Below, piece by piece: positions 44,872-55,079 of a stretch of 64,000 bases of DNA (within the stretch, counting starts at the first letter, position 1; every line of letters begins with the position of its first letter). The notes under the pieces were generated by a model. That model made no database searches. It was given only the letters and a program-made list of their open reading frames with translations, and was not told where the DNA came from. Source of the stretch: Psychroflexus sp. ALD_RP9 (lineage in GTDB: Bacteria > Bacteroidota > Bacteroidia > Flavobacteriales > Flavobacteriaceae). A program made the position numbers and the translations under genes. The stretch is taken from NCBI RefSeq assembly GCF_017311165.1, contig NZ_CP062973.1, positions 186,001-250,000 of the forward strand, given 5' to 3'.

Positions 44872-47058
44872 TTATTTGGTAAATAACAGTTCTCTGTATT
44901 TGGTTAATGGCCAAATTTCGTCATCTACTAATAATTCTAGTTTATCGCAATGATATCTGATCTCTTCAAAGTAAGGCTTTACCTCATCACAATATAAATA
45001 AGCTCTCTTGGTAACGTCTTGAGTATTATTCGCTTTTTTACGCGCTTCAATCATATGATTAATTCCTGCGTTAATTTTTTCAATATGATTTGAGATACGC
45101 TCAATAATGGCTAATTGTTCTGTTGCCATAGTTTTAAACTGGTCGCCATAAATATCTTTTAAACCCTTAACGTTTTTAATTAATACATTTTGATACTTGA
45201 TAGCTGTCGGAATCACATGGTTTCTGGCAATATCTCCTAACAAGCGACCTTCAATTTGAATATGTTTTGAATAATCTTCAATTTCGATATCAAATCTTGC
45301 TTTTACTTCAACTTCATTCATGATGTTAAGCTCAGTAAATAGCTCAATCGCTTTTTTAGAAATTTTTGGTTGTAGCGCTTCTGGGGTTGTTCTATAATTG
45401 CTTAAACCACGTCTTTTAGCTTCATTTTCCCAAGCTTCTCCGTAACCATCTCCTTCAAATCTAATACTTTTAGATGCTTTTATGTATTCTCGTAATACAT
45501 TAAAAATAGCATCATCTTTCTTCATTTTTTTATCTTTCACAAGTGCATCGACTTCAACTTTAAATTCTTTAAGTTGTTTAGCAACAATAGCGTTTAAAAC
45601 TGTCATTGGGTCAGCACAATTAGCAGTAGAACCTACTGCTCGTAACTCAAATTTATTACCAGTAAAGGCAAAAGGTGAAGTTCGGTTTCTATCGGTGTTA
45701 TCAAGTAATATTTCAGGAATTTTACCAACTACGTTTAGTTTAAGATCTGTTTTTTCTTGAGGCGATAGCTTACCGTCTGTTACTTTTTCGAGCTCATCTA
45801 AAACTTTGGTGAGTTGAGAACCTATAAAAACTGACATGATAGCTGGTGGTGCCTCATTAGCACCTAATCGATGATCGTTTGAAGCTGAAGCAATTGTAGC
45901 TCTAATTAACTCTTCGTTTTCATACACTGCTTTGATGGTATTGACAAAAAACGTTAAAAAACGTAAATTACGCATAGGCGTTTTTCCTGGGCTTAATAAA
46001 TTAGAACCAGAACTTGTGGCTAAGGACCAATTATTATGTTTACCACTACCATTTACCCCTTTAAAAGGTTTTTCATGAAATAAGACTTTAAAATTGTGAC
46101 GCTCTGCAACTTTATCCATTACATCCATTAATAATGAATTATGGTCTACCGCTAAATTAGCCTCTTCAAAAATAGGTGCTAATTCAAACTGATTAGGCGC
46201 GACTTCATTATGCCTTGTTTTAACAGGAATACCCAACAACATGCTTTCTTTTTCTAGTTCACGCATGAAGTTTAAAATTCGTGCAGGAATAGAACCAAAA
46301 TAATGATCATCTAATTGTTGACCTTTAGCAGGTGCATGACCTAGTAAAGTTCGGCCAGACATCATCAGGTCTGGACGTGAAGCTGCCAAAGCAGAATCGA
46401 TTAAAAAATATTCTTGTTCCCAACCTAAAGTAGCATTAACTTTAGTTTCTTTTTTATCGAAGTATTTTACAACATCAGTTGCTGCTTTATCTAAAGCAGA
46501 AATTGATTTAAGTAAAGGTGTTTTATAATCTAAGGCTTCACCTGTGTAAGCCACAAAAATGGTAGGAATGCAAAGTGTTGTTCCCCAGACAAAAGCTGGT
46601 GAAGTTGGATCCCAAGCGGTATAACCACGAGCTTCGAACGTATTTCTAATACCACCACTTGGCAAACTTGAAGCATCAGGCTCTTGCTGAACAAGCTGAC
46701 CGCCGCCAAATTTTTCGATAGAGCGGCCATCACTGGTCGTTTCAAAAAAGGCATCGTGCTTTTCGGCTGTTGAACCTGTTAGTGGTTGAAACCAATGTGT
46801 ATAATGTGTAGCACCTTTTGAGATTGCCCATTCTTTCATACCAGTTGAAATATGATCGGCTAAGTCACGGTCGATTTTAGAACTATTTTCAATAGCATCC
46901 ATAATGCTGTTATAAGAATCGCTAGTCAAGTATTGACGCATCGCTTCTTTGTTGAAAACGTTTTTCCCAAAAAGTTCAGATCTTCTAATACTCTCATCTA
47001 CTGGTATTGGTTTTCGATTTAGAGTTTCTTTAATTGCATTAAATCTTAGATTAGCCAT
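44872..47058 (-). CDS. glnN: Glutamine synthetase type III (GlnN)
   Basis: Makes glutamine from glutamate and ammonia. The 728-residue length and the central signatures mark the large type III enzyme found in Bacteroidota and cyanobacteria: EVAPNQFELAPIFEEANLAV, the catalytic-core segments FKGVNGSGKHNNWSLATS and TDGKLSPQEKTDL, plus DNTDRNRTSPFAFTGNKFE. It is dodecameric in characterised examples. A minus-strand -7 element (TATTTTTG, 47075-47082) lies just upstream. Type III GS is the only GS in the window. Confidence 0.96.
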   Translation of the reverse strand: MANLRFNAIKETLNRKPIPVDESIRRSELFGKNVFNKEAMRQYLTSDSYNSIMDAIENSSKIDRDLADHISTGMKEWAISKGATHYTHWFQPLTGSTAEKHDAFFETTSDGRSIEKFGGGQLVQQEPDASSLPSGGIRNTFEARGYTAWDPTSPAFVWGTTLCIPTIFVAYTGEALDYKTPLLKSISALDKAATDVVKYFDKKETKVNATLGWEQEYFLIDSALAASRPDLMMSGRTLLGHAPAKGQQLDDHYFGSIPARILNFMRELEKESMLLGIPVKTRHNEVAPNQFELAPIFEEANLAVDHNSLLMDVMDKVAERHNFKVLFHEKPFKGVNGSGKHNNWSLATSSGSNLLSPGKTPMRNLRFLTFFVNTIKAVYENEELIRATIASASNDHRLGANEAPPAIMSVFIGSQLTKVLDELEKVTDGKLSPQEKTDLKLNVVGKIPEILLDNTDRNRTSPFAFTGNKFELRAVGSTANCADPMTVLNAIVAKQLKEFKVEVDALVKDKKMKKDDAIFNVLREYIKASKSIRFEGDGYGEAWENEAKRRGLSNYRTTPEALQPKISKKAIELFTELNIMNEVEVKARFDIEIEDYSKHIQIEGRLLGDIARNHVIPTAIKYQNVLIKNVKGLKDIYGDQFKTMATEQLAIIERISNHIEKINAGINHMIEARKKANNTQDVTKRAYLYCDEVKPYFEEIRYHCDKLELLVDDEIWPLTKYRELLFTK

Positions 47059-47074
47059 AATAAAATATTTTGAC

Positions 47075-47082
47075 CAAAAATA
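47075..47082 (-). promoter_or_regulatory. -7 element for glnN
   Basis: TATTTTTG on the minus strand fits TAnnTTTG and lies 17 bases before the glnN ATG. The -33 triplet at the proper spacing is not TTG. Confidence 0.4.
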
Positions 47083-47162
47083 GTTTTATTTTTAATTAAC
47101 CCCTATATTTTTAATGTTAAATTTAAATTATGTCCATAAAAATACAGTATCACCCCTAAAAA

Positions 47163-47441
47163 TTATACCCTAAAAGCTAAAACAACAAATATTAAATAAG
47201 GAATTAAAATTAAAGCTCCTTTATAACGGCCAATGGAGTGCTGTTTTGGTAATAAGGCTAAAATCAAGCTTAGTTTAGCAAAGCCAATCATCCAAAATAT
47301 ATCAATACTTAAAATAGATTTAGATTGTAATGCAATAGGCTTAATCATAGATGTTATACCTAACACAGGCGCCATATTAAAAATATTAGAACCGATTAAA
47401 TTTCCTAAAGAAATGGCTTTTTCGCCCTTAAAAGCAGTTTT
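47163..47441 (-). pseudogene. Truncated 3' end of a Ca/Na antiporter gene (displaced copy)
   Basis: The minus strand encodes the last ~89 residues of a CaCA antiporter (from AFKGEKAISLGNLIG to the stop), nearly identical to the 3' end of the intact gene at 51533-52480. There is no upstream part, so it is a gene remnant. About 7-8 residue changes occur among ~10 base changes, mostly non-synonymous, including Lys in a membrane segment (GFAKLSLIL where the intact copy has GFATLTLIL), which points to relaxed selection. It most likely is the original gene end left behind when the cassette 47442-51532 was inserted. Confidence 0.85.
47169..47435 (+). repeat. Direct repeat copy 1 (antiporter 3' end)
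   Basis: About 267 bp, matching 51539-51805 at a constant offset of 4370 bp with about 10 mismatches by hand count (around 96% identity). Confidence 0.9.
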
Positions 47442-47463
47442 GAGAAATATTTAAAAAATTTTC

Positions 47464-47562
47464 AACACATGATGAAAAAGCGATTTTAACATTATACCTA
47501 ATGCTGTTTGTATTTTTTTTTTTTAGGTTCGCATCATAACCAATTTAAAATCGTGATGTGTT
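47464..47562. other. Inverted repeat A at the cassette's left end
   Basis: Two-part inverted repeat: AACACAT (47464-47470) with ATGTGTT (47556-47562), and CGATTTTAA (47481-47489) with TTAAAATCG (47545-47553). The ~55-base centre includes a run of 13 T. No homology to known insertion sequence ends was recognised. Confidence 0.6.
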
Positions 47563-47583
47563 CTTAGTCAATTATTAAAAAAA

Positions 47584-47613
47584 GAGAAAGCTCCTACCAG
47601 GTAGAAGCTTCTC
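47584..47613 (-). terminator. Minus-strand terminator-like hairpin inside the cassette leader
   Basis: On the minus strand the stem GAGAAGCTTCTACC / GGTAGGAGCTTTCTC is followed by TTTTTTTAATAATT, a classical rho-independent shape. No minus-strand gene precedes it, so it may belong to an unseen transcript or protect the region downstream. Confidence 0.6.
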
Positions 47614-47623
47614 CCGAAAGATG

Positions 47624-47675
47624 CATGAAAAAACTTACATCTCACTCTCAATTTGCAAATGTAAGCTTTTTCATG
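47624..47675. other. Long hairpin in the cassette leader
   Basis: A 17-bp stem, CATGAAAAAACTTACAT (47624-47640) with ATGTAAGCTTTTTCATG (47659-47675), one mismatch, around an 18-base loop. It has no T tract on the plus strand, so it is not a plus-strand terminator. Confidence 0.7.
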
Positions 47676-47708
47676 AGACCTCAACAGCCTTCAGAGCTGA
47701 AAATTTAA
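47625..47708 (+). CDS. Possible 27-residue upstream open reading frame
   Basis: An ATG inside the left arm of the hairpin opens a 27-codon frame (MKKLTSHSQFANVSFF...) that ends with TAA at 47706, 52 bases before the small secreted protein gene. It may be a leader peptide controlling that gene. It could equally be chance; there is no ribosome binding site to judge by. Confidence 0.3.
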   Translation: MKKLTSHSQFANVSFFMRPQQPSELKI

Positions 47709-47760
47709 TCATCCGTTATGATGGCAAACTGACAATCTAAATTTTTTAAATACGAATATC

Positions 47761-47997
47761 ATGAAAAAGTTTTTCACAATTATTGCACTTAGTGCAATAA
47801 CTTTAAGTTTAAATGCAAATAACGCTCAATTACAATCTAACGATGACTGTGAAAGTTATGCTATGACACAAGCAGCTAGCGAATTTAGTGCAGGCTACTT
47901 CACAACACCATGGGCATCGTTAGACTCTTACTTTTATTACCTCGGAATTTGTGAAGATTCAGATGGAATACCAGCAGATACAGTTATTATTGACTAA
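47761..47997 (+). CDS. Small secreted acidic protein with two cysteines
   Basis: A 78-residue protein with a signal peptide (MKKFFTIIALSAITLSLNAN, cleavage near residue 22). The mature part of ~56 residues is acidic (many Asp and Glu) and rich in Ser, Tyr, Phe and Ala, with two cysteines (SNDDCESY and LGICEDSDG) that could form a disulfide. No homologue is recognised. It is followed by the GLPGLI gene after 9 bases, so the two are probably co-transcribed. It is the natural candidate substrate of the neighbouring receptor. It could also be a secreted signal or toxin; nothing in the sequence decides. Confidence 0.75.
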   Translation: MKKFFTIIALSAITLSLNANNAQLQSNDDCESYAMTQAASEFSAGYFTTPWASLDSYFYYLGICEDSDGIPADTVIID

Positions 47998-48006
47998 ACA
48001 ACAATT

Positions 48007-48753
48007 ATGAATTACAAACGACTTTACATTTTAATATTTATCTTCAGTCCTGCTTTCTTAATTGCACAATCTGATTTTGAAATCACTTACAAGAAAAGAG
48101 TGCTACCAGGATATTTTCAAATTTCTGATTCGGTTAGCGAAGTTAAAAAGTCAAGGTATTTAAAGACAAGAAACAGCGTAAAACGAAATATCGGTAAATT
48201 TAAATACACTTTACAAATAGATACGGAGTCAAATATTTCAGAGTTTAAGGTGATTAAAACCATGAGTGTTGATGGAAATGAGCGATTTAATAACAATTTG
48301 AAAGGTATGTTAGGCGGTCGTTTTCCGATATATAATCATTTAAAAAAAGATAGTGTTTTTGAAAATGCTGATTTCAGAGGAAAGATATATTTTACACGTT
48401 ACAAGAGTCCGCGATACAAATGGCGTTTAACAAAAAAAACGAAAGATATTCTTGGATTTAAATGTTATTTGGCTGTTACTGAAGAGAGCACAGACAAAAC
48501 GGTTATTTTTAATTTTCAAAAAGATAAAAAGAAAGCTTTTCATGCTTGGTACGCTCCGAGTTTACCCTCCAAATACGGGCCGTCATTTTTTACGGGTTTA
48601 CCAGGATTAGTATTGCAAGCTGGAAATAAAAAAATGGAAATTTATGCCTCAGACATCAAAAATGTTAACAATGTAAAGGTTGAATTTCCTGATAAAAAAT
48701 CAATAACTCATAAACAAAAAATTAATCAGCTCAAAGCTATGATCGGCAGGTAA
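48007..48753 (+). CDS. GLPGLI family protein
   Basis: A 248-residue exported protein (signal peptide 1-20, ending AFLIAQ). The GLPGLV motif at 197-202, inside FFTGLPGLVLQAGN, defines the Bacteroidota-specific GLPGLI family. The preceding stretch, FKCYLAVTEESTDKTVIFNF and HAWYAPSLPSKYGPS, is typical too. Function is unknown; members usually occur next to large TonB-dependent receptors, as here. Composition is AT-rich like the host. A terminator follows it, so the receptor gene may have its own transcript or be reduced in level. Confidence 0.85.
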   Translation: MNYKRLYILIFIFSPAFLIAQSDFEITYKKRVLPGYFQISDSVSEVKKSRYLKTRNSVKRNIGKFKYTLQIDTESNISEFKVIKTMSVDGNERFNNNLKGMLGGRFPIYNHLKKDSVFENADFRGKIYFTRYKSPRYKWRLTKKTKDILGFKCYLAVTEESTDKTVIFNFQKDKKKAFHAWYAPSLPSKYGPSFFTGLPGLVLQAGNKKMEIYASDIKNVNNVKVEFPDKKSITHKQKINQLKAMIGR

Positions 48754-48779
48754 AAATAAATGTAAAGTCGTATGTTTTA

Positions 48780-48811
48780 TTTAACCCTCAAAAATGAGGG
48801 TTAAATTTTTT
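48780..48811 (+). terminator. Terminator-like hairpin between the GLPGLI and receptor genes
   Basis: TTTAACCCTC / GAGGGTTAAA with a 6-base loop and a T6 run, 27 bases after the GLPGLI stop. It may act as an attenuator, since the receptor gene starts 35 bases later and lacks an obvious promoter of its own. Confidence 0.75.
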
Positions 48812-48845
48812 ATGATAATTGATACAAAAAAATTTTAAATTATAT

Positions 48846-51524
48846 ATGAACCACCTTTTGAAAATATTTCTAGTACTCCTTATCCCACTAACCAGTTTTG
48901 CCCAAACTCATAAACTCGAAGGCAAAATCCAAGACAGCCTTCAAAACAGCATTCCTAACACCAATATTATTGCCACACCTTTAGACACTGATGATGAAAT
49001 TACCTTTTCCATCAGCGACCAAAAAGGCAGATACCGCTTAAAACTGAGCGAGCATTCAAGATATCTGGTAGAAATTACGTATTTGGGATTTCAAAAAATT
49101 TCAGATACCATTCAGATTTCAGAAAATCAAACACAAAATTTCACCTTAAAAGAAAGTACCGTAAGTCTGGAAGAAGTCTTAATTCGTCAGGAAATGGCAG
49201 TCATTGTGAAAGAAGACACCATCACTTACCACACCGACCAGTTTAAAACTGGTGAAGAACGTAAACTGCGCGACATACTCAAAAAGCTTCCAGGTGTGGA
49301 AGTCGATCGGGACGGCAACGTGAAAGTCAATGGCAAATCAGTCACTAAACTGATGGTCGATGGCAAAACTTTTTTTACTGGCGATGAAAAACTGGGTGTC
49401 AACAACATTCCCGCTGATGCGGTAGATGAAGTTGAAGCACTAGACAATTACAATGAAGTCGCATTTCTGAAAGGTTTGGAAGACAGCGACAAAATGGCGC
49501 TTAACATCAAGCTGAAAGACGGCAAAAAGAAATTCGTTTTTGGCGATGTAGAAGTTGGCGGTGGCGTGGAAGATCGATTTTTATTTTATCCCAAACTGTT
49601 TTATTACAGTCCCAAAACGGCTATTAATGTCATTGGCGATGTGAATAATATTGGTCAGAAATCCTTTACAGTGCAAGACTATTTAGATTTTGAAGGCGGA
49701 TTTGGTTTGGCGCTAGAAGACCCGTCAACCTATTTCAGCTTATACAGAGACGATTTTGCGCAATTTTTGCAAGAAGACGAATTCACCTACAGCAAAAATG
49801 ATTTTGGTGCCGCCAGTTTGTCTCAAGAATTGGGCGGTCATTTTAGTTTGGATGCGTACAGCATTTTCAATAAAGGCAAACTTGAAACGCTTACGAAACA
49901 AAATTTAACCTACCAAGCCAATAATCAAGCCGACGAATTCAGAGAACAAAGCGGGCTCAACGAACTGTTGTTTAGCATCAATAAAATAAAACTGAGATAC
50001 GACAATATGGACAATCTGGATTTGCGCGCCAATACCACAATCAAATACAATGAAGGGAATTCAGAAAATTTATTGAGCTCTTTTGTCCAAAATGAAAAAG
50101 AATTTGTGAACACCTATACCAAACCAGATAATATTGAGTTTGCACAAGTCTTCAACCTCAATAAACAGTTTTCTTACAAGCACACCACAAAAGTAGAAGC
50201 AAGCTTAAAACACAGCGACCAAACGACGGATCGGTTGTGGAATTTCAACCAAGCTTTATTTTCAGGCATTATTCCACTGGTCGATGAAGACGACACCTAT
50301 CAACTGAGCCAACGCAACCGCAATACGATCAATAATTTTAAACTCAATGCCAAGCATTATTGGGTGTTGGCAGATTTTCACCACATTTATCCCGTGGCAG
50401 GTTTCAATTATTTTGACACTGAATACCAAACTTTGGACGAACAAATCCTGAATGACGGCAGCACCAATAGTTTTCAAGATGCAGGATTCAATAATCAATT
50501 GGACTTCAATTTATTGGATGCGTATGCAGGATTTCAATACAAAACACAAATTGATGATTTGGTGCTTCGTCCAGGTCTTGTTGTTCACAATTACAGTTGG
50601 AATGCCGCGCAATTCAACAATGAAATAGCCAACAATAACAAAACCATTTTTCTGCCTGAATTTTTTGCTGAATATGAATTCAATACGTCAAAGAAACTAA
50701 AACTAGAATACAATCGGTATTCAAATTTCAGCAATATTTCAGGCTTTGCCAACCGTTTGCGTTTGCAAAGTTTCAACCAATTGTACCGAGGCAATGAAAA
50801 TTTAGAAAACCAACTTTACAATAGAATTCGCTTGAATTATAGGAATTTCAATCTTTTCAAAGGTTTGACATATTTCGTCAATTTGAGTTACAGTCACCGA
50901 GAAAAAAGCATCAGAAATCAAACAGAAATAGAGGGCATCGACCAGATTTCAACCAGTATTTATACCGATTTACCAGAAAATACGTACAGCATTTCAGGAA
51001 ATATCAACAAGCGCATTCCGGATTTCAGTTTTAGTTTAGGCACAAATTTTAGTTTTTCAGATTATTCCAGAATTATCAATAATGAAACGCTGGCTTACCA
51101 AAATAACAACTACAGTTACAATTGGAGAGTCAACACGCGATTTGATGATTTACCAAATTTTGAAGTCGGGTACAGACATTCATTTTCCAGGTTGAATTCA
51201 GATCAAATCGATAATAAATTTATGCGACTCACGCCTTTTGCTTTGGTCGAATACGACTTTTTAGACGATTTTATTTTTAAATTCGATTACGATTACAATT
51301 ATTTTAAAAACCAAACCACCGATAATTCCAACCGTTTTGAAATAGCCGAATCCAGCTTGTTTTATGGCAAAGAAGATTCCGCTTGGTCTTTTGAAATCAG
51401 TGCCACTAATATTTTCGATGTCGATTTCAAAAGAGAAAACTCCGTCAACGAATTTATCGTGTCCGACCGCCGCATTTTTCTTCAACCCAGAACTATTTTA
51501 TTCAAATTGATTTACAAGCTATAA
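48846..51524 (+). CDS. TonB-dependent receptor-like outer membrane protein with carboxypeptidase-like N-terminal domain
   Basis: An 892-residue outer membrane protein with a signal peptide (1-18, LTSFAQ), a carboxypeptidase-regulatory-like beta-sandwich domain (HKLEGKIQDSLQNSIPNTNI, about 20-100), a plug (REMKKLPGVEVDRDGNVKVN-like region at 145-165, TGDEKLGVNNIPADAVDEVE), and a long barrel ending RTILFKLIYKL. The plug and N-domain are of the SusC-like type. Base composition differs clearly from the neighbours: many CTG, GGC, GTC and GAC codons, whereas the host uses TTA, GGT and GAT. This suggests recent acquisition. The ATG at 48846 is preferred over an upstream TTG because it gives a proper signal peptide. 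Confidence 0.82.
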   Translation: MNHLLKIFLVLLIPLTSFAQTHKLEGKIQDSLQNSIPNTNIIATPLDTDDEITFSISDQKGRYRLKLSEHSRYLVEITYLGFQKISDTIQISENQTQNFTLKESTVSLEEVLIRQEMAVIVKEDTITYHTDQFKTGEERKLRDILKKLPGVEVDRDGNVKVNGKSVTKLMVDGKTFFTGDEKLGVNNIPADAVDEVEALDNYNEVAFLKGLEDSDKMALNIKLKDGKKKFVFGDVEVGGGVEDRFLFYPKLFYYSPKTAINVIGDVNNIGQKSFTVQDYLDFEGGFGLALEDPSTYFSLYRDDFAQFLQEDEFTYSKNDFGAASLSQELGGHFSLDAYSIFNKGKLETLTKQNLTYQANNQADEFREQSGLNELLFSINKIKLRYDNMDNLDLRANTTIKYNEGNSENLLSSFVQNEKEFVNTYTKPDNIEFAQVFNLNKQFSYKHTTKVEASLKHSDQTTDRLWNFNQALFSGIIPLVDEDDTYQLSQRNRNTINNFKLNAKHYWVLADFHHIYPVAGFNYFDTEYQTLDEQILNDGSTNSFQDAGFNNQLDFNLLDAYAGFQYKTQIDDLVLRPGLVVHNYSWNAAQFNNEIANNNKTIFLPEFFAEYEFNTSKKLKLEYNRYSNFSNISGFANRLRLQSFNQLYRGNENLENQLYNRIRLNYRNFNLFKGLTYFVNLSYSHREKSIRNQTEIEGIDQISTSIYTDLPENTYSISGNINKRIPDFSFSLGTNFSFSDYSRIINNETLAYQNNNYSYNWRVNTRFDDLPNFEVGYRHSFSRLNSDQIDNKFMRLTPFALVEYDFLDDFIFKFDYDYNYFKNQTTDNSNRFEIAESSLFYGKEDSAWSFEISATNIFDVDFKRENSVNEFIVSDRRIFLQPRTILFKLIYKL

Positions 51525-51532
51525 CTTATTGT

Positions 51533-52480
51533 TTAAGACCTAAGTGCTAAAACAACAAATATTAAATAAGGAATTAAAATTAAAGCTCCTTTATAACGGC
51601 CAATGGAGTGCTGTTTTGGCAATAAGGCTAAAATCAAGGTTAGTGTAGCAAAGCCAATCATCCAAAATATATCAATACTTAAAATAGATTTAGATTGTAA
51701 TGCAATAGGCTTAATCATAGCTGTTATACCTAACACAGAAGCAATGTTAAAAATATTAGAACCGATTAAATTTCCTAAAGAAATGGCTTTTTCGCCCTTA
51801 AAAGCCGCTATAAGTGAAGCAGCAAGCTCAGGTACACTAGTTCCAAAAGCAATCATAGTTACTGATATAACAAGCTCACTAACACCAAGTGTTTTTGCAA
51901 TTTCTACAGAGCCTTTTACGAGCCAATCTGAACCAAAATATAAACCTAGACCACCAATAATTAACCAGACCACTATTTTAAAGGTCGATACTTCTTTTAA
52001 TTGGTCATCAACCTCTTCAGTTGTAAATGATTTTTTACCGCGTACCTTTCTTATTAAAATAAATAAGTAAACAAATAAGCAACTTAACAAAACCAAGCCT
52101 TCTAAGGCTGAAATTACTTCACCAGATTTTAGCATGAAATACAATAAGCCTGAAAACAGCATCATCACTGGCCAATTTAAACGATAAAAGTCTTTATCTA
52201 TACCAATACTAGAAATTAAGCTAGTTACCCCTAAAACTAAGCCGATGTTCGCAATATTAGAGCCGACTACATTACCTAATGAAATATCAGAAAAACCTTC
52301 TAAAGCCGCTTGTAAACTTACAATTAATTCAGGAGCAGAAGTCGAAAAAGAGACAACAGTTAGGGCAATGATCATTTTAGAGATCTTTAATTTAAAAGAT
52401 AAGGCTACTGATGAACGCACTAAAAATTCACCGCCAATAACTAAAGCTGCTAAGCCTATTAAAACTAAAATCACATTCAT
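51533..52480 (-). CDS. Calcium/sodium antiporter (CaCA family)
   Basis: A 315-residue inner membrane exchanger of the YrbG type. It has two inverted alpha repeats, STSAPELIVSLQAALEG with SLGNVVGSNIANIGLVLG, and FGTSVPELAASLIAAFKG with SLGNLIGSNIFNIASVLG, ten hydrophobic segments in all. It exchanges Ca2+ for Na+ or H+. The frame is also open two codons further (GTG at 52486), but the ATG at 52480 is chosen. Its 3' end is repeated as a pseudogene fragment at 47163. The cassette receptor gene ends 8 bases from its stop, convergent. Confidence 0.92.
   Translation of the reverse strand: MNVILVLIGLAALVIGGEFLVRSSVALSFKLKISKMIIALTVVSFSTSAPELIVSLQAALEGFSDISLGNVVGSNIANIGLVLGVTSLISSIGIDKDFYRLNWPVMMLFSGLLYFMLKSGEVISALEGLVLLSCLFVYLFILIRKVRGKKSFTTEEVDDQLKEVSTFKIVVWLIIGGLGLYFGSDWLVKGSVEIAKTLGVSELVISVTMIAFGTSVPELAASLIAAFKGEKAISLGNLIGSNIFNIASVLGITAMIKPIALQSKSILSIDIFWMIGFATLTLILALLPKQHSIGRYKGALILIPYLIFVVLALRS
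51539..51805 (+). repeat. Direct repeat copy 2 (antiporter 3' end)
   Basis: The active copy of the duplicated gene end; partner of 47169-47435. It forms the present 3' end of the intact antiporter gene and borders the cassette on its right. Confidence 0.9.
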
Positions 52481-52548
52481 TACCACATAATTTTCTGCGA
52501 AAATAGAACTTAATTTCTGTTTTGTGAAAATGTTAAAAACTATTTTTA

Positions 52549-52562
52549 TAGTTATATAACTA
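52549..52562. promoter_or_regulatory. Candidate BlaI-type operator
   Basis: Perfect 14-bp palindrome TAGTTATATAACTA, upstream of the blaI-like gene; a half-site ATATAACTA recurs at 52592-52600 just before its ATG. It lies between the divergent antiporter and blaI-like genes, where an autoregulatory operator is expected. Confidence 0.45.
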
Positions 52563-52573
52563 AATTTATAGTT

Positions 52574-52581
52574 TATATTTG
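52574..52581 (+). promoter_or_regulatory. -7 element of the blaI-like operon
   Basis: TATATTTG fits TAnnTTTG; at the -33 spacing the triplet is TTA. The operator palindrome covers the -33 region, which would let a repressor block RNA polymerase. Confidence 0.5.
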
Positions 52582-52600
52582 ATTATTGAAATATATAACT

Positions 52601-52963
52601 ATGAATAACAATTTACCGCATTTAACAGCCAAAGAAGAAGAAATCATGGCCTGCTTATGGTCGCTTGAAAAAGCTTTTGTAAAAGAAATTGTGGCCCATT
52701 TAGGTCAAAACTTACATTACAACACCGTTTCTACCATTATTAGAAACTTGGAAGATAAAGGCTATGTTGAACATCAAGCCTTTGGTAAAACCCATCAATA
52801 TTACCCGAAAATTTCTAAAGAAGTTTATAGCGAGCATGTATTAAACCTAAATTCTCAACGCTTTTTTAATGGCTCTTATAAAGATATGGTTTCATTTTTT
52901 GCTAAAAAAGAGCAAATTTCTAAAGAAGATCTTGAAGATATTTTAAAGCTGATCAATAAATAA
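52601..52963 (+). CDS. BlaI/MecI/CopY family repressor
   Basis: A 120-residue winged-helix repressor: LTAKEEEIMACLWSLEKAFVK then NTVSTIIRNLEDKGYVEHQA and the typical dimerisation tail. Such repressors are cleaved or released after a partner membrane protease senses a signal (antibiotic or cell-wall stress). The ATG at 52601 is preferred over the upstream in-frame codon at 52586. The BlaR1-like sensor gene starts 1 base after its stop. Confidence 0.92.
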   Translation: MNNNLPHLTAKEEEIMACLWSLEKAFVKEIVAHLGQNLHYNTVSTIIRNLEDKGYVEHQAFGKTHQYYPKISKEVYSEHVLNLNSQRFFNGSYKDMVSFFAKKEQISKEDLEDILKLINK

Positions 52964-52964
52964 T

Positions 52965-55079
52965 ATGGAACTTTTAATTTATTTCGGAAAAGCCTCACTT
53001 CTACTCTTTTTGTTTTGGGCTATTTACAAATTGGTTCTCGAAGACGAAACTTATAATCAACTTAAGCGGTATTATCTATTAATTGGCTATATCGCTAGTT
53101 TAATCTTGCCATTAATTCAGTTTACCAGAACAAAAATCATTGAGCCCACAACTTCAACATTAATAGCAAATTCTACTCTAGCAAGCAGTGATATTTCAAC
53201 GGAATTAAGCACTGCAGAATTGATGCTTCAAATTATAGATGATTATTATTTAATTGAATTGTTGCTTTTAGGTGTGGCCTTATTCTTTCAGTTGAAGTTT
53301 CTCCGCCAATTAGTTCGGTTAGTTTCCCAGTTGAAGTCAGCCCAAAAATACACTAAAAATGGTATTCATTATATCGCATCAAGAAGTGAAGACACAGCCT
53401 TTTCATTTTTAAATTATGTGGTCTATAATCCCGAAAAATTAACACCAACTGAACTTCAACTCATTTTAAAACATGAAGAAGCGCACGTAAAGCTAAGGCA
53501 TAGTTTAGACATTTTGTTGGCGCATATTTACACCAGTTTATTCTGGTTTAATCCTATAGCGTGGTTTTACAAAAATGCTATTACAGAAAACTTAGAGTTT
53601 CAAGCCGATGCTAGTGCTACTTCAGCCGACTCATTAAAACCATATCAGCAAACTTTATTCAAAGTAGTTGAAGAACGCTACAAACATCAACTGCAACATG
53701 CATTTAATCAAAACTCAATCAAAAAACGAATCATTATGTTACAAAAATCAAATTTTAAACCCTCTAAAAATTACTTTCGGTTAGTTTTAATTACGCCGTT
53801 TCTAGTGGCTTATATGCTTTTATTTCAAATTGAAACAATTGCACAAGTCAGAACAAATAACATTAAAGAAACTAAAGCTGAAATTACAAAAGTAGAACTT
53901 ACTTATGGTGCTAAAACTAGCTTTGAAAATCTAAGAAAAGACATCGAATTTTTGAAAGAAGAGTTTGGGGTTGACATGTCCTACCGTAACGATACTCGAA
54001 CCGAAGATGGTTTTATTAAAGGTATTACCTTAGATATCAATACAAATACAGGCTTTTCAGGCTCTGTAACTTCGCCCGATTTAGCACAAACACCTGTTTA
54101 TGTTTACTACTACCCAAATGAAGATGTAAAAAGTCCGTTTGGTGTTGGCACTGGCAAAAAATCAGAAAGCGAGACAGCTATAACTTACGATGAAATTAAA
54201 AATGCCGAAAAAATAAGAATTGACGGTAAGACTTACAAAAATGAAGAGTTGAAAGGAAAATACATTGCTTTTGATAAAGCGAGTTATAATCCCGAAACCA
54301 AAACCTTAACAATTAAACGACCATCTCAATTTACAAATGAAGAGTTTGATGACTTCAAAACATTCTTTTCAAAATTAAAAGAAGAAAAAGCTAAAAACTT
54401 CACCTATGAATTTATTAGTATTTCAGATGAAGCAAAAATAATGTTAGGCAAATACAAGCATGGCGAAAAAACTGATCTAAAGGCAGTTTCAAAAACATCA
54501 TCATTTTCTTTTGATGCCTCTACGACTGAAAATCTAAAGGAAATTTCAGCCAAAGACTTGAATGATACTGAAGTGTTAATTATTAACCGAAAGAAATTTT
54601 CTAAAAAAGAATTAGCCAACAAAAATATAATCGTTGAGCAAGCCGCTTATGATAGCTCAACAAAAACTTTAAATATAAAAACGCCTGAAGCATTTGGCGA
54701 AGGCATTTTTGATGGGTTTAAACAATTATTGAATAAAACGAAATCAATATACGGCAATGAATTGAAAGAAGAATTACATTTTATCAACATCACAAAAAAA
54801 CTTGACGCGCTTTTAATTACTGTTAATAATTTGAAGATTGATAATAATCCTGAAAACGCCACTCAAAATAAAATTGTAGAAAATTCTTTGACTAAAAACC
54901 AAGACGTTTTGTTTATAGTAGACGGTAAAAAAATAAATCAAAATGAAATTAAAAAGATTGATCCTAACAAAATAGCTTCTATAAATGTAATTAAGAATCC
55001 TACTGAAATTAAAAAATATACCTCTGATGAAGAAAATTATGAAGGTGTTATTTTAATTACCACCACAGATAAAAAATAA
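52965..55079 (+). CDS. BlaR1-like M56 membrane metallopeptidase with internal repeat and TonB-plug-like tail
   Basis: A 704-residue sensor-type protease. About 280 N-terminal residues hold four membrane segments and the M56 domain with the zinc motif HEEAH (170-174) and a downstream ENLEFQADASA segment supplying the third ligand. A last membrane helix (about 268-288) leads to a ~400-residue periplasmic part. Within it two ~85-90-residue units are clearly related (about 408-495 and 530-618), both with IDGKTYKNEEL-like, ETKTLTIKRP-like and EEFDDFKTFF-like segments. The C-terminus (DVLFIVDGKKINQNEIKKID...VILITT) resembles a TonB-receptor plug fragment. It presumably cleaves or activates the adjacent BlaI-type repressor. 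Confidence 0.88.
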   Translation: MELLIYFGKASLLLFLFWAIYKLVLEDETYNQLKRYYLLIGYIASLILPLIQFTRTKIIEPTTSTLIANSTLASSDISTELSTAELMLQIIDDYYLIELLLLGVALFFQLKFLRQLVRLVSQLKSAQKYTKNGIHYIASRSEDTAFSFLNYVVYNPEKLTPTELQLILKHEEAHVKLRHSLDILLAHIYTSLFWFNPIAWFYKNAITENLEFQADASATSADSLKPYQQTLFKVVEERYKHQLQHAFNQNSIKKRIIMLQKSNFKPSKNYFRLVLITPFLVAYMLLFQIETIAQVRTNNIKETKAEITKVELTYGAKTSFENLRKDIEFLKEEFGVDMSYRNDTRTEDGFIKGITLDINTNTGFSGSVTSPDLAQTPVYVYYYPNEDVKSPFGVGTGKKSESETAITYDEIKNAEKIRIDGKTYKNEELKGKYIAFDKASYNPETKTLTIKRPSQFTNEEFDDFKTFFSKLKEEKAKNFTYEFISISDEAKIMLGKYKHGEKTDLKAVSKTSSFSFDASTTENLKEISAKDLNDTEVLIINRKKFSKKELANKNIIVEQAAYDSSTKTLNIKTPEAFGEGIFDGFKQLLNKTKSIYGNELKEELHFINITKKLDALLITVNNLKIDNNPENATQNKIVENSLTKNQDVLFIVDGKKINQNEIKKIDPNKIASINVIKNPTEIKKYTSDEENYEGVILITTTDKK

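Follow-up and report, generated by a model that had tools for sequence, protein, structure and literature searches.

A cassette insertion flanked by a duplicated antiporter gene end in Psychroflexus sp. ALD_RP9, and related flanking duplications in the genus

Features of the locus

The window, a stretch of 64,000 nucleotides, belongs to the genome of Psychroflexus sp. ALD_RP9, a single contig of 2.56 Mb. A glutamine synthetase type III is encoded by glnN on the minus strand (44872-47058; Pfam GSIII_N, 257.9 bits), the ancestral neighbour of the antiporter gene, near which it lies in relatives. Next to glnN are the original glnN-antiporter spacer (47059-47162) and copy 1 of the antiporter 3' end (47163-47444, minus strand), a displaced, headless fragment with its stop codon retained, recognized from open reading frame, repeat and alignment. 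A non-homologous joint, together with about 70 nt on the 5' side of a conserved leader block, occupies 47436-47507 on the plus strand. The block common to other leaders starts at 47508-47530 (plus strand), includes a run of 12 T (47513-47524) and may contain a promoter. The structured leader itself (47561-47735, plus strand), a covariance-model match, stands at the head of the cassette and precedes its genes.

Three genes follow on the plus strand. The first (47761-47997) encodes a small peptide of 78 aa, presumably exported, with a signal-like N-terminus as in relatives and a variable mature part containing two cysteines; neither Pfam nor NCBIfam yielded a match to it. The second (48007-48753) encodes a GLPGLI family protein (TIGR01200, Porph_ging; 108.1 bits for TIGR01200, cut-off 50). 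The third open reading frame (48819-51524) opens with TTG, and likeness to P. salarius suggests a start at 48846. Its product is a TonB-receptor-like outer-membrane barrel with a CarboxypepD_reg domain (48846-51524). Copy 2 (51533-51814, minus strand; repeat and alignment) forms the 3' end of the intact calcium/sodium antiporter gene (51533-52486, minus strand; TIGR00367, 232.4 bits, cut-off 179.65).

An earlier note on the window had described three genes in about 4.1 kb between the copies, free of integrase, recombinase and transposase genes. The list of open reading frames agrees with the gene count, and open reading frames and family search detected no integrase or recombinase among the three proteins of this insert or the three insert proteins of P. 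salarius. No inverted repeats were located at the insert ends among the 25 longest of 45 inverted pairs.

Direct repeat of the antiporter gene end

The direct repeat extends over 276 nt (47169-47444 versus 51539-51814) with 95% identity and a spacing of 4370. The earlier note had placed the antiporter 3' end twice at this offset, with about 10 differences and copy 1 in decay. Repeat scan and alignment confirmed the former: 47169-47435 and 51539-51805 (267 nt) differ by 10 mismatches (96.3% identity). The count of substitutions that it had proposed gave 13 mismatches across 11 codons when the comparison was run through the stop codon (273 nt), with dN 0.040 and dS 0.083 (NG86). Seven of these 11 codons replace the amino acid (I-M, S-P, A-S, T-K, T-S, L-F and S-V). 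The frame is intact in both copies, and the stop codons correspond (51533 and 47163).

One threshold was applied to repeats throughout: direct orientation, at least 60 bp, at least 80% identity and a distance of 0.8-15 kb. Such repeats occurred in two of 20 control regions of 17 kb, chosen at round coordinates (10 from the window's genome and 10 from P. tropicus), and in two of 58 loci from named flavobacterial genomes, each 14 kb or longer. The repeat at the antiporter is therefore not a matter of chance. One of the two positive control regions (2000000-2017000 of the window's own genome) contains many direct repeats of 66-500 bp.

The empty site in relatives

The named records closest to the window are P. 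salarius DSM 25661 (96%), followed by a Psychroflexus MAG and P. halocasei (75%). The glnN-antiporter interval, which the earlier note had named for comparison, was examined at named flavobacterial loci, of which 80 were kept out of 157 found. At 67 of the 80, no more than 600 bp separate glnN from the antiporter gene, and at seven the distance is 1.4-3.2 kb (66 and eight with a different search size at the same loci). No glnN was seen at five of the 80 kept loci, one of which is a contig end. An insert with an extra antiporter end was present at one of the 80, that of P. salarius. Within the genus, 17 of 26 relatives carry glnN within 340 bp of the antiporter gene. The other nine comprise six without glnN within 1.5 kb, one contig end, one locus outside the comparison and P. 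salarius itself.

In P. halocasei the DNA that separates glnN from the antiporter gene can be aligned with the stretch separating glnN from copy 1 in the window. The empty site in relatives and the conserved spacer on the glnN side identify copy 1 as the old gene end, with the insert having entered between the copies. The arrangement is thus a true insertion, as had been claimed from the window alone, and not an old layout: the insertion displaced the original gene end and apparently brought its own copy.

Sister species, age and homogenisation

P. salarius carries two units between glnN and the intact antiporter gene. Unit 1 follows glnN with a short decayed fragment, a leader, a gene for a 245-aa lipoprotein-like product and a small gene. 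Unit 2 consists of a full fragment, a leader, a peptide gene, two GLPGLI genes and a barrel gene, adjoining the intact antiporter gene. The fragment-leader joint, taken as illegitimate, is the point past TTAAAAGC where fragment and intact gene diverge. It has the same position within 2 nt in three fragments, one in the window and two in P. salarius, which speaks for a single insertion event. One flank of the middle fragment of P. salarius matches the flank of the intact gene over 26 nt that run from the last codons of the barrel gene into the stop codon; the opposite flank of this fragment is the fragment-leader joint. This middle gene end looks recombinant, as unequal crossing-over between flanking repeats would leave it. 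The gene content differs between the two units, so unequal crossing-over alone is insufficient and a later replacement is required.

The insert is as diverged as its surroundings. Between the window and P. salarius, dS is 0.41 for the GLPGLI gene and 0.94 for the barrel gene, compared to 0.35-0.97 for the flanks. The insertion is older than the split between the two species; independent insertion in each is opposed by the common joint and by the divergence of the insert. Inside one genome, dS between the copies is only 0.083 (window) and 0.093 (P. salarius), while orthologous gene ends reach 0.478. Site patterns in the gene ends group the copies by genome at 21 sites (concerted) and by position at one (orthologous). 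Low dS within genomes and these site patterns demonstrate that the copies were homogenised after the species split.

The statement that copy 1 decays while copy 2 is kept thus stands in part. With P. salarius as outgroup and by eye, six of the 13 differences fall on copy 1, two on copy 2 and five are without assignment. The changes in copy 1 affect five codons and all alter the amino acid, whereas both changes in copy 2 are silent. Copy 1 has indeed more changes, and replacing ones, but the copies have been homogenised over the long term. The pattern in P. salarius is less clean, with several changes, some of them amino-acid changing, within the intact gene.

A structured leader found only in Psychroflexus among the genomes searched

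The 5' part of the insert has further copies elsewhere in its own genome. A covariance model of the leader was built from five copies and used to search 100 genomes (E up to 0.01, stricter filters on). It gave 54 matches, in 16 of 27 Psychroflexus genomes and in none of the 73 others. The 43 distinct rows, including one probable false match on the minus strand of the window, have 86.5% of their pair cells paired, and 25 of the 30 pairs show changes on both sides; the alignment was fitted to the model and is therefore biased towards it. Shuffled controls reached none of five measures in 500 cases, and slid structures were 34-49% paired. Rfam 15 gave six hits in the window at 46500-53500, all below the family cut-offs. 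In six leader loci only SAM-II riboswitches reached a cut-off, and none did for the leader. The leader is accordingly presented as a candidate new RNA family, which appears to covary and is found only in Psychroflexus among the 100 genomes.

Upstream of the leaders lies a T run, in many species accompanied by TACGGT-ACCGTA dyads. The distance between scar and leader is variable, and the block common to the leaders begins near the T tract. For both reasons the leader was rejected as an integron- or transposon-like end, and the leader region is read as a probable promoter with a structured 5' untranslated region. The T run at 47513-47524 varies in length among leader copies, and slipped-strand phase variation is possible there. 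Dyads of the type TACGGT...ACCGTA were observed upstream of the leaders at loci L079, L085, L089, L096 and L078 and also beside ssb; they possibly represent a regulator site or a dispersed repeat.

Flanking duplications at other loci

The scan for duplications flanking a cassette, termed scars here, covered 30 leader loci, equal to 27 distinct sites and 41 of the 54 leader matches. Three further matches were scanned in short loci only, with no scar, and ten lie outside the larger-region scan. Direct repeats (at least 60 bp, at least 80% identity) occur at 14 leader sites. At nine of the 27 sites a stretch of the neighbouring DNA stands on both sides of a leader-headed cassette, among them the antiporter scars of the window's genome and P. 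salarius, which stem from one event. P. tropicus has scars at a ferredoxin gene (420 bp, 84%) and at ssb (998 bp, 90%), genome G021 has one at ssb (402+426 bp), and scars of barrel 5' ends are found in G021, G016, G009 and P. tropicus. Scar length ranges from 69 to 998 bp across loci, and the target gene varies. The insertion at the antiporter gene with its duplicating scar is hence one of a recurring set in Psychroflexus. Repeats of this kind around cassettes at other loci and in other species had been named beforehand as support for mobility, and they were found at ferredoxin, ssb and barrel genes.

No clear scar was recognized at 18 of the 27 sites (four with other repeats, one weak case and 13 with nothing). 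Several repeats were rejected as target duplications. Those at L045, L080, L094 and L095 are leader-leader, signal-peptide or paralogue repeats, and those at L087, L073 and L093 resemble dispersed elements, with TACGGT dyads and a repeat of the GAGGGGC type. A weak intergenic repeat of 61 bp at L083 was excluded from the count.

Of the 27 genomes, that of P. tropicus is the only one with ferredoxin in two copies and the only one with a close fragment of uvrC. At least two ssb copies with at least 91% likeness to the query are present in P. tropicus, P. montanilacus (G008), G021 and G001, and G010 and G014 each carry two that are less similar. The ferredoxin locus of G001 and of P. montanilacus contains a cassette whose leader is preceded by an additional ssb gene. 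In the barrel tree, the barrel of this ferredoxin-locus cassette groups with the ssb-locus barrel of G021, and the barrel of the window falls into a family located mostly at metK. The tree and the extra ssb genes indicate that related cassettes occupy different sites. The ferredoxin fragment of P. tropicus is nearer to G004 and G024, its intact gene nearer to G016, G001 and G008; a foreign origin of the intact gene has no support in the tree, and the neighbouring genes favour neither reading.

At the antiporter and ferredoxin genes the fragment lies on the 5' side of the leader and the whole gene downstream. A general polarity of this kind was rejected, because it fails at ssb: both copies are complete in P. 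tropicus, and G021 has the complete copy on the 5' side of the leader and a start-less copy downstream. The barrel 5'-end cases are uninformative in this respect. Duplications also exist without a leader, as in the ssb array of P. montanilacus and at an SdpI-family gene at uvrC in P. tropicus. The former (L265, 5893-11066) consists of six consecutive outer-membrane barrel genes between two complete ssb copies (738-bp repeats, 90%). In the latter (L089, 5250-6144), the SdpI-family gene is bordered by the intact uvrC gene and by a duplicated uvrC 5' end of 213 bp, and it adjoins a leader cassette. This insert has no leader of its own, and the intact gene is on the other side.

Origin of the arrangement

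Two things are required by the geometry: a joint within the neighbour gene, and a second copy by which this gene stays whole. A joint placed inside the homologous arm achieves both in one step. The explanation we favour, given about an even chance of being correct, is a duplicating form of homology-facilitated illegitimate recombination, with later exchange between the repeats and similar scars across the genus. In the ancestor shared with P. salarius, a leader-headed cassette (T tract, leader, peptide, GLPGLI and barrel genes) would have inserted between glnN and the antiporter gene. At one end, the incoming DNA would have undergone an illegitimate joining to the resident antiporter gene, at a point 276 bp in from the 3' terminus of that gene. 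At its other end it would have carried an antiporter 3' end and been resolved by homology, leaving the antiporter gene whole and a headless copy beside glnN. Subsequently, the flanking repeats exchanged sequence, P. salarius would have acquired a second unit whose middle gene end is recombinant, and related cassettes would have gained similar scars at other genes of the genus. Copy 2 is homologous to copy 1, and homogenisation has erased the sequence signal of its origin. Homologous recombination in the antiporter gene, the alternative raised in the earlier note, comes close to this proposal, but one illegitimate joint is also needed. As to the route of entry, natural competence has been described for a flavobacterium, and the consulted part of that report gives Psychroflexus homologues for three of four unusual flavobacterial transformation genes and none for the fourth (PMC8459023).

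Several observations weigh against homology-facilitated illegitimate recombination. The barrel of the window belongs to a metK-locus family, so the donor cassette may not have adjoined an antiporter gene, which leaves the homologous arm unexplained. The units of P. salarius differ in their genes, and 18 of the 27 leader sites lack a clear scar. The polarity is not general, as seen at ssb in P. tropicus and G021; this lowers the weight of the homology-facilitated mechanism and raises that of repair at two staggered nicks. In such patch-mediated repair, the antiporter gene would be nicked at two points about 276 bp from each other and filled in with capture of an unrelated cassette, and no homology would be needed. 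Patch-mediated repair is a mechanism from plants and animals, and overhangs of hundreds of bases are not known in bacteria. It would account for duplications of varied length at unrelated genes, for a window barrel whose family belongs to another locus, and for the leaderless SdpI-family gene with its 213-bp uvrC duplication in P. tropicus. By title and opening abstract lines, the listed papers on such repair deal with eukaryotes or with general break repair, and staggered nicks are considered an unlikely origin of the arrangement. An in-place tandem duplication of cassette and gene end, followed by recombination with an empty-site chromosome or by loss of the first unit, is more doubtful still. 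The two units of P. salarius and the metK locus of G021, with several units and repeated barrel 5' ends, would suit it, but more steps are needed, and the units at the ferredoxin gene differ in gene content, an outcome that does not follow directly from tandem duplication.

Readings that assign the insertion to a mobile element fare worse. It is improbable that the leader-headed cassettes for exported proteins across the genus form a mobile class of their own that moves among chromosomal sites and duplicates a neighbouring stretch of tens to about a thousand bases and spares the host gene, with participation of the leader or a cognate enzyme. Slightly less credit still is given to a dedicated element in which the leader region acts as recombination end for an unidentified enzyme making long, variable target duplications. 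A multi-copy leader seen only in the genus, and scars at unrelated genes, would fit such an element. However, the insert is devoid of a recombinase, leader matches lie anywhere from about 49 to 282 nt away from the scar, the leader shows the covariation expected of an RNA, and flanking duplications occur without it. Known transposases generate far shorter target duplications. The duplication of 276 nt, and a length that varies between loci, set the arrangement apart from insertion sequences and transposons. Finally, a site-specific integrative element at a gene 3' end, restoring the gene, is very hard to credit. The arrangement seen at the 3' ends of the antiporter and ferredoxin genes resembles one, and the earlier note had compared it to such elements; this comparison found no support. 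No integrase is encoded in the insert, barrel genes are affected at their 5' ends and ssb over its whole length, and genes, lengths (69 to 998 bp) and ends differ among loci, with no common attachment sequence.

Relation to known systems

For type VI secretion effector-immunity modules of Vibrio cholerae, a homology anchor on one side and an illegitimate joint on the other have been proposed; older gene ends are shifted and arrays grow (PMC5361080, consulted in part). The metK-locus arrays of Psychroflexus with displaced barrel 5' ends are similar to the modules as described there. In Vibrio the parts displaced are the module's own, whereas in Psychroflexus unrelated antiporter, ferredoxin and ssb genes are duplicated and a whole copy is kept. 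An effector or immunity role, as in the Vibrio modules, would be hypothetical for the Psychroflexus cassettes. Homology-facilitated illegitimate recombination has been described in Acinetobacter, pneumococcus and Pseudomonas stutzeri (PMC3240628, consulted in part). The favoured mechanism shares with it one homologous and one illegitimate joint; it differs in that the joint would lie inside the homologous arm and duplicate it. Merodiploids of Streptococcus pneumoniae arise by transformation as large tandem duplications between existing repeats (PMC3784515, consulted in part). What the two cases share is duplication through alternative pairing and unequal crossing-over, with no active transposase involved, while in Psychroflexus a short gene end flanks new DNA. 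The process resembles known module displacement; by the literature surveyed, what appears new is the targeting of housekeeping genes, the sparing of the host gene and the leader.

GLPGLI family proteins (TIGR01200) occur beside TonB-receptor-like barrels, and the product of 48007-48753 lies over the family cut-off. The structured leader, the two-cysteine peptide in front and the scars go beyond the known GLPGLI-barrel pairs. By title, the GLPGLI literature concerns Riemerella and Porphyromonas, and titles and opening abstract lines on GLPGLI and on the Psychroflexus genome and TonB contain nothing on such cassettes.

If the favoured reading is true, cassettes would be added recurrently beside core genes without disrupting them, and displaced gene ends would mark past insertions. 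Recombination could then use the scars as handles, amplifying the cassette and holding the copies similar, and the headless fragment would stay active as DNA. Leader, two-cysteine peptides, GLPGLI proteins and barrels together point to an unstudied regulated surface system.

Cassette contents

The genes downstream of the leaders encode signal-like peptides with variable mature parts, GLPGLI proteins and barrels. Most of the leader-associated peptides have two cysteines. GLPGLI genes are present in 23 of the 27 genomes, with up to 26 per genome. In three of five peptide groups, the first 22 residues have a higher median identity than the remainder; the exceptions are two groups of three peptides each. 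The cassette may constitute a system of variable exported peptides that perhaps acts in competition or recognition, a proposal made because of the likeness to module arrays: several peptide-GLPGLI pairs, one terminal barrel and displaced barrel starts.

Two peptide genes at L045 (12003-12066 and 14083-14146) have signal-coding DNA that is 98% identical over 64 bp, and their mature parts differ; the pattern is reminiscent of families that shuffle the mature domain. Upstream of metK in G021 (L078, 2113-17219), an array of peptide and GLPGLI genes includes several truncated barrel 5' ends and a terminal intact barrel, and the gene opposite metK at this array is presumably selD-like. In G024 (L087, 9256-10108), four tandem genes for 59-aa lipoprotein-like products have identical translations.
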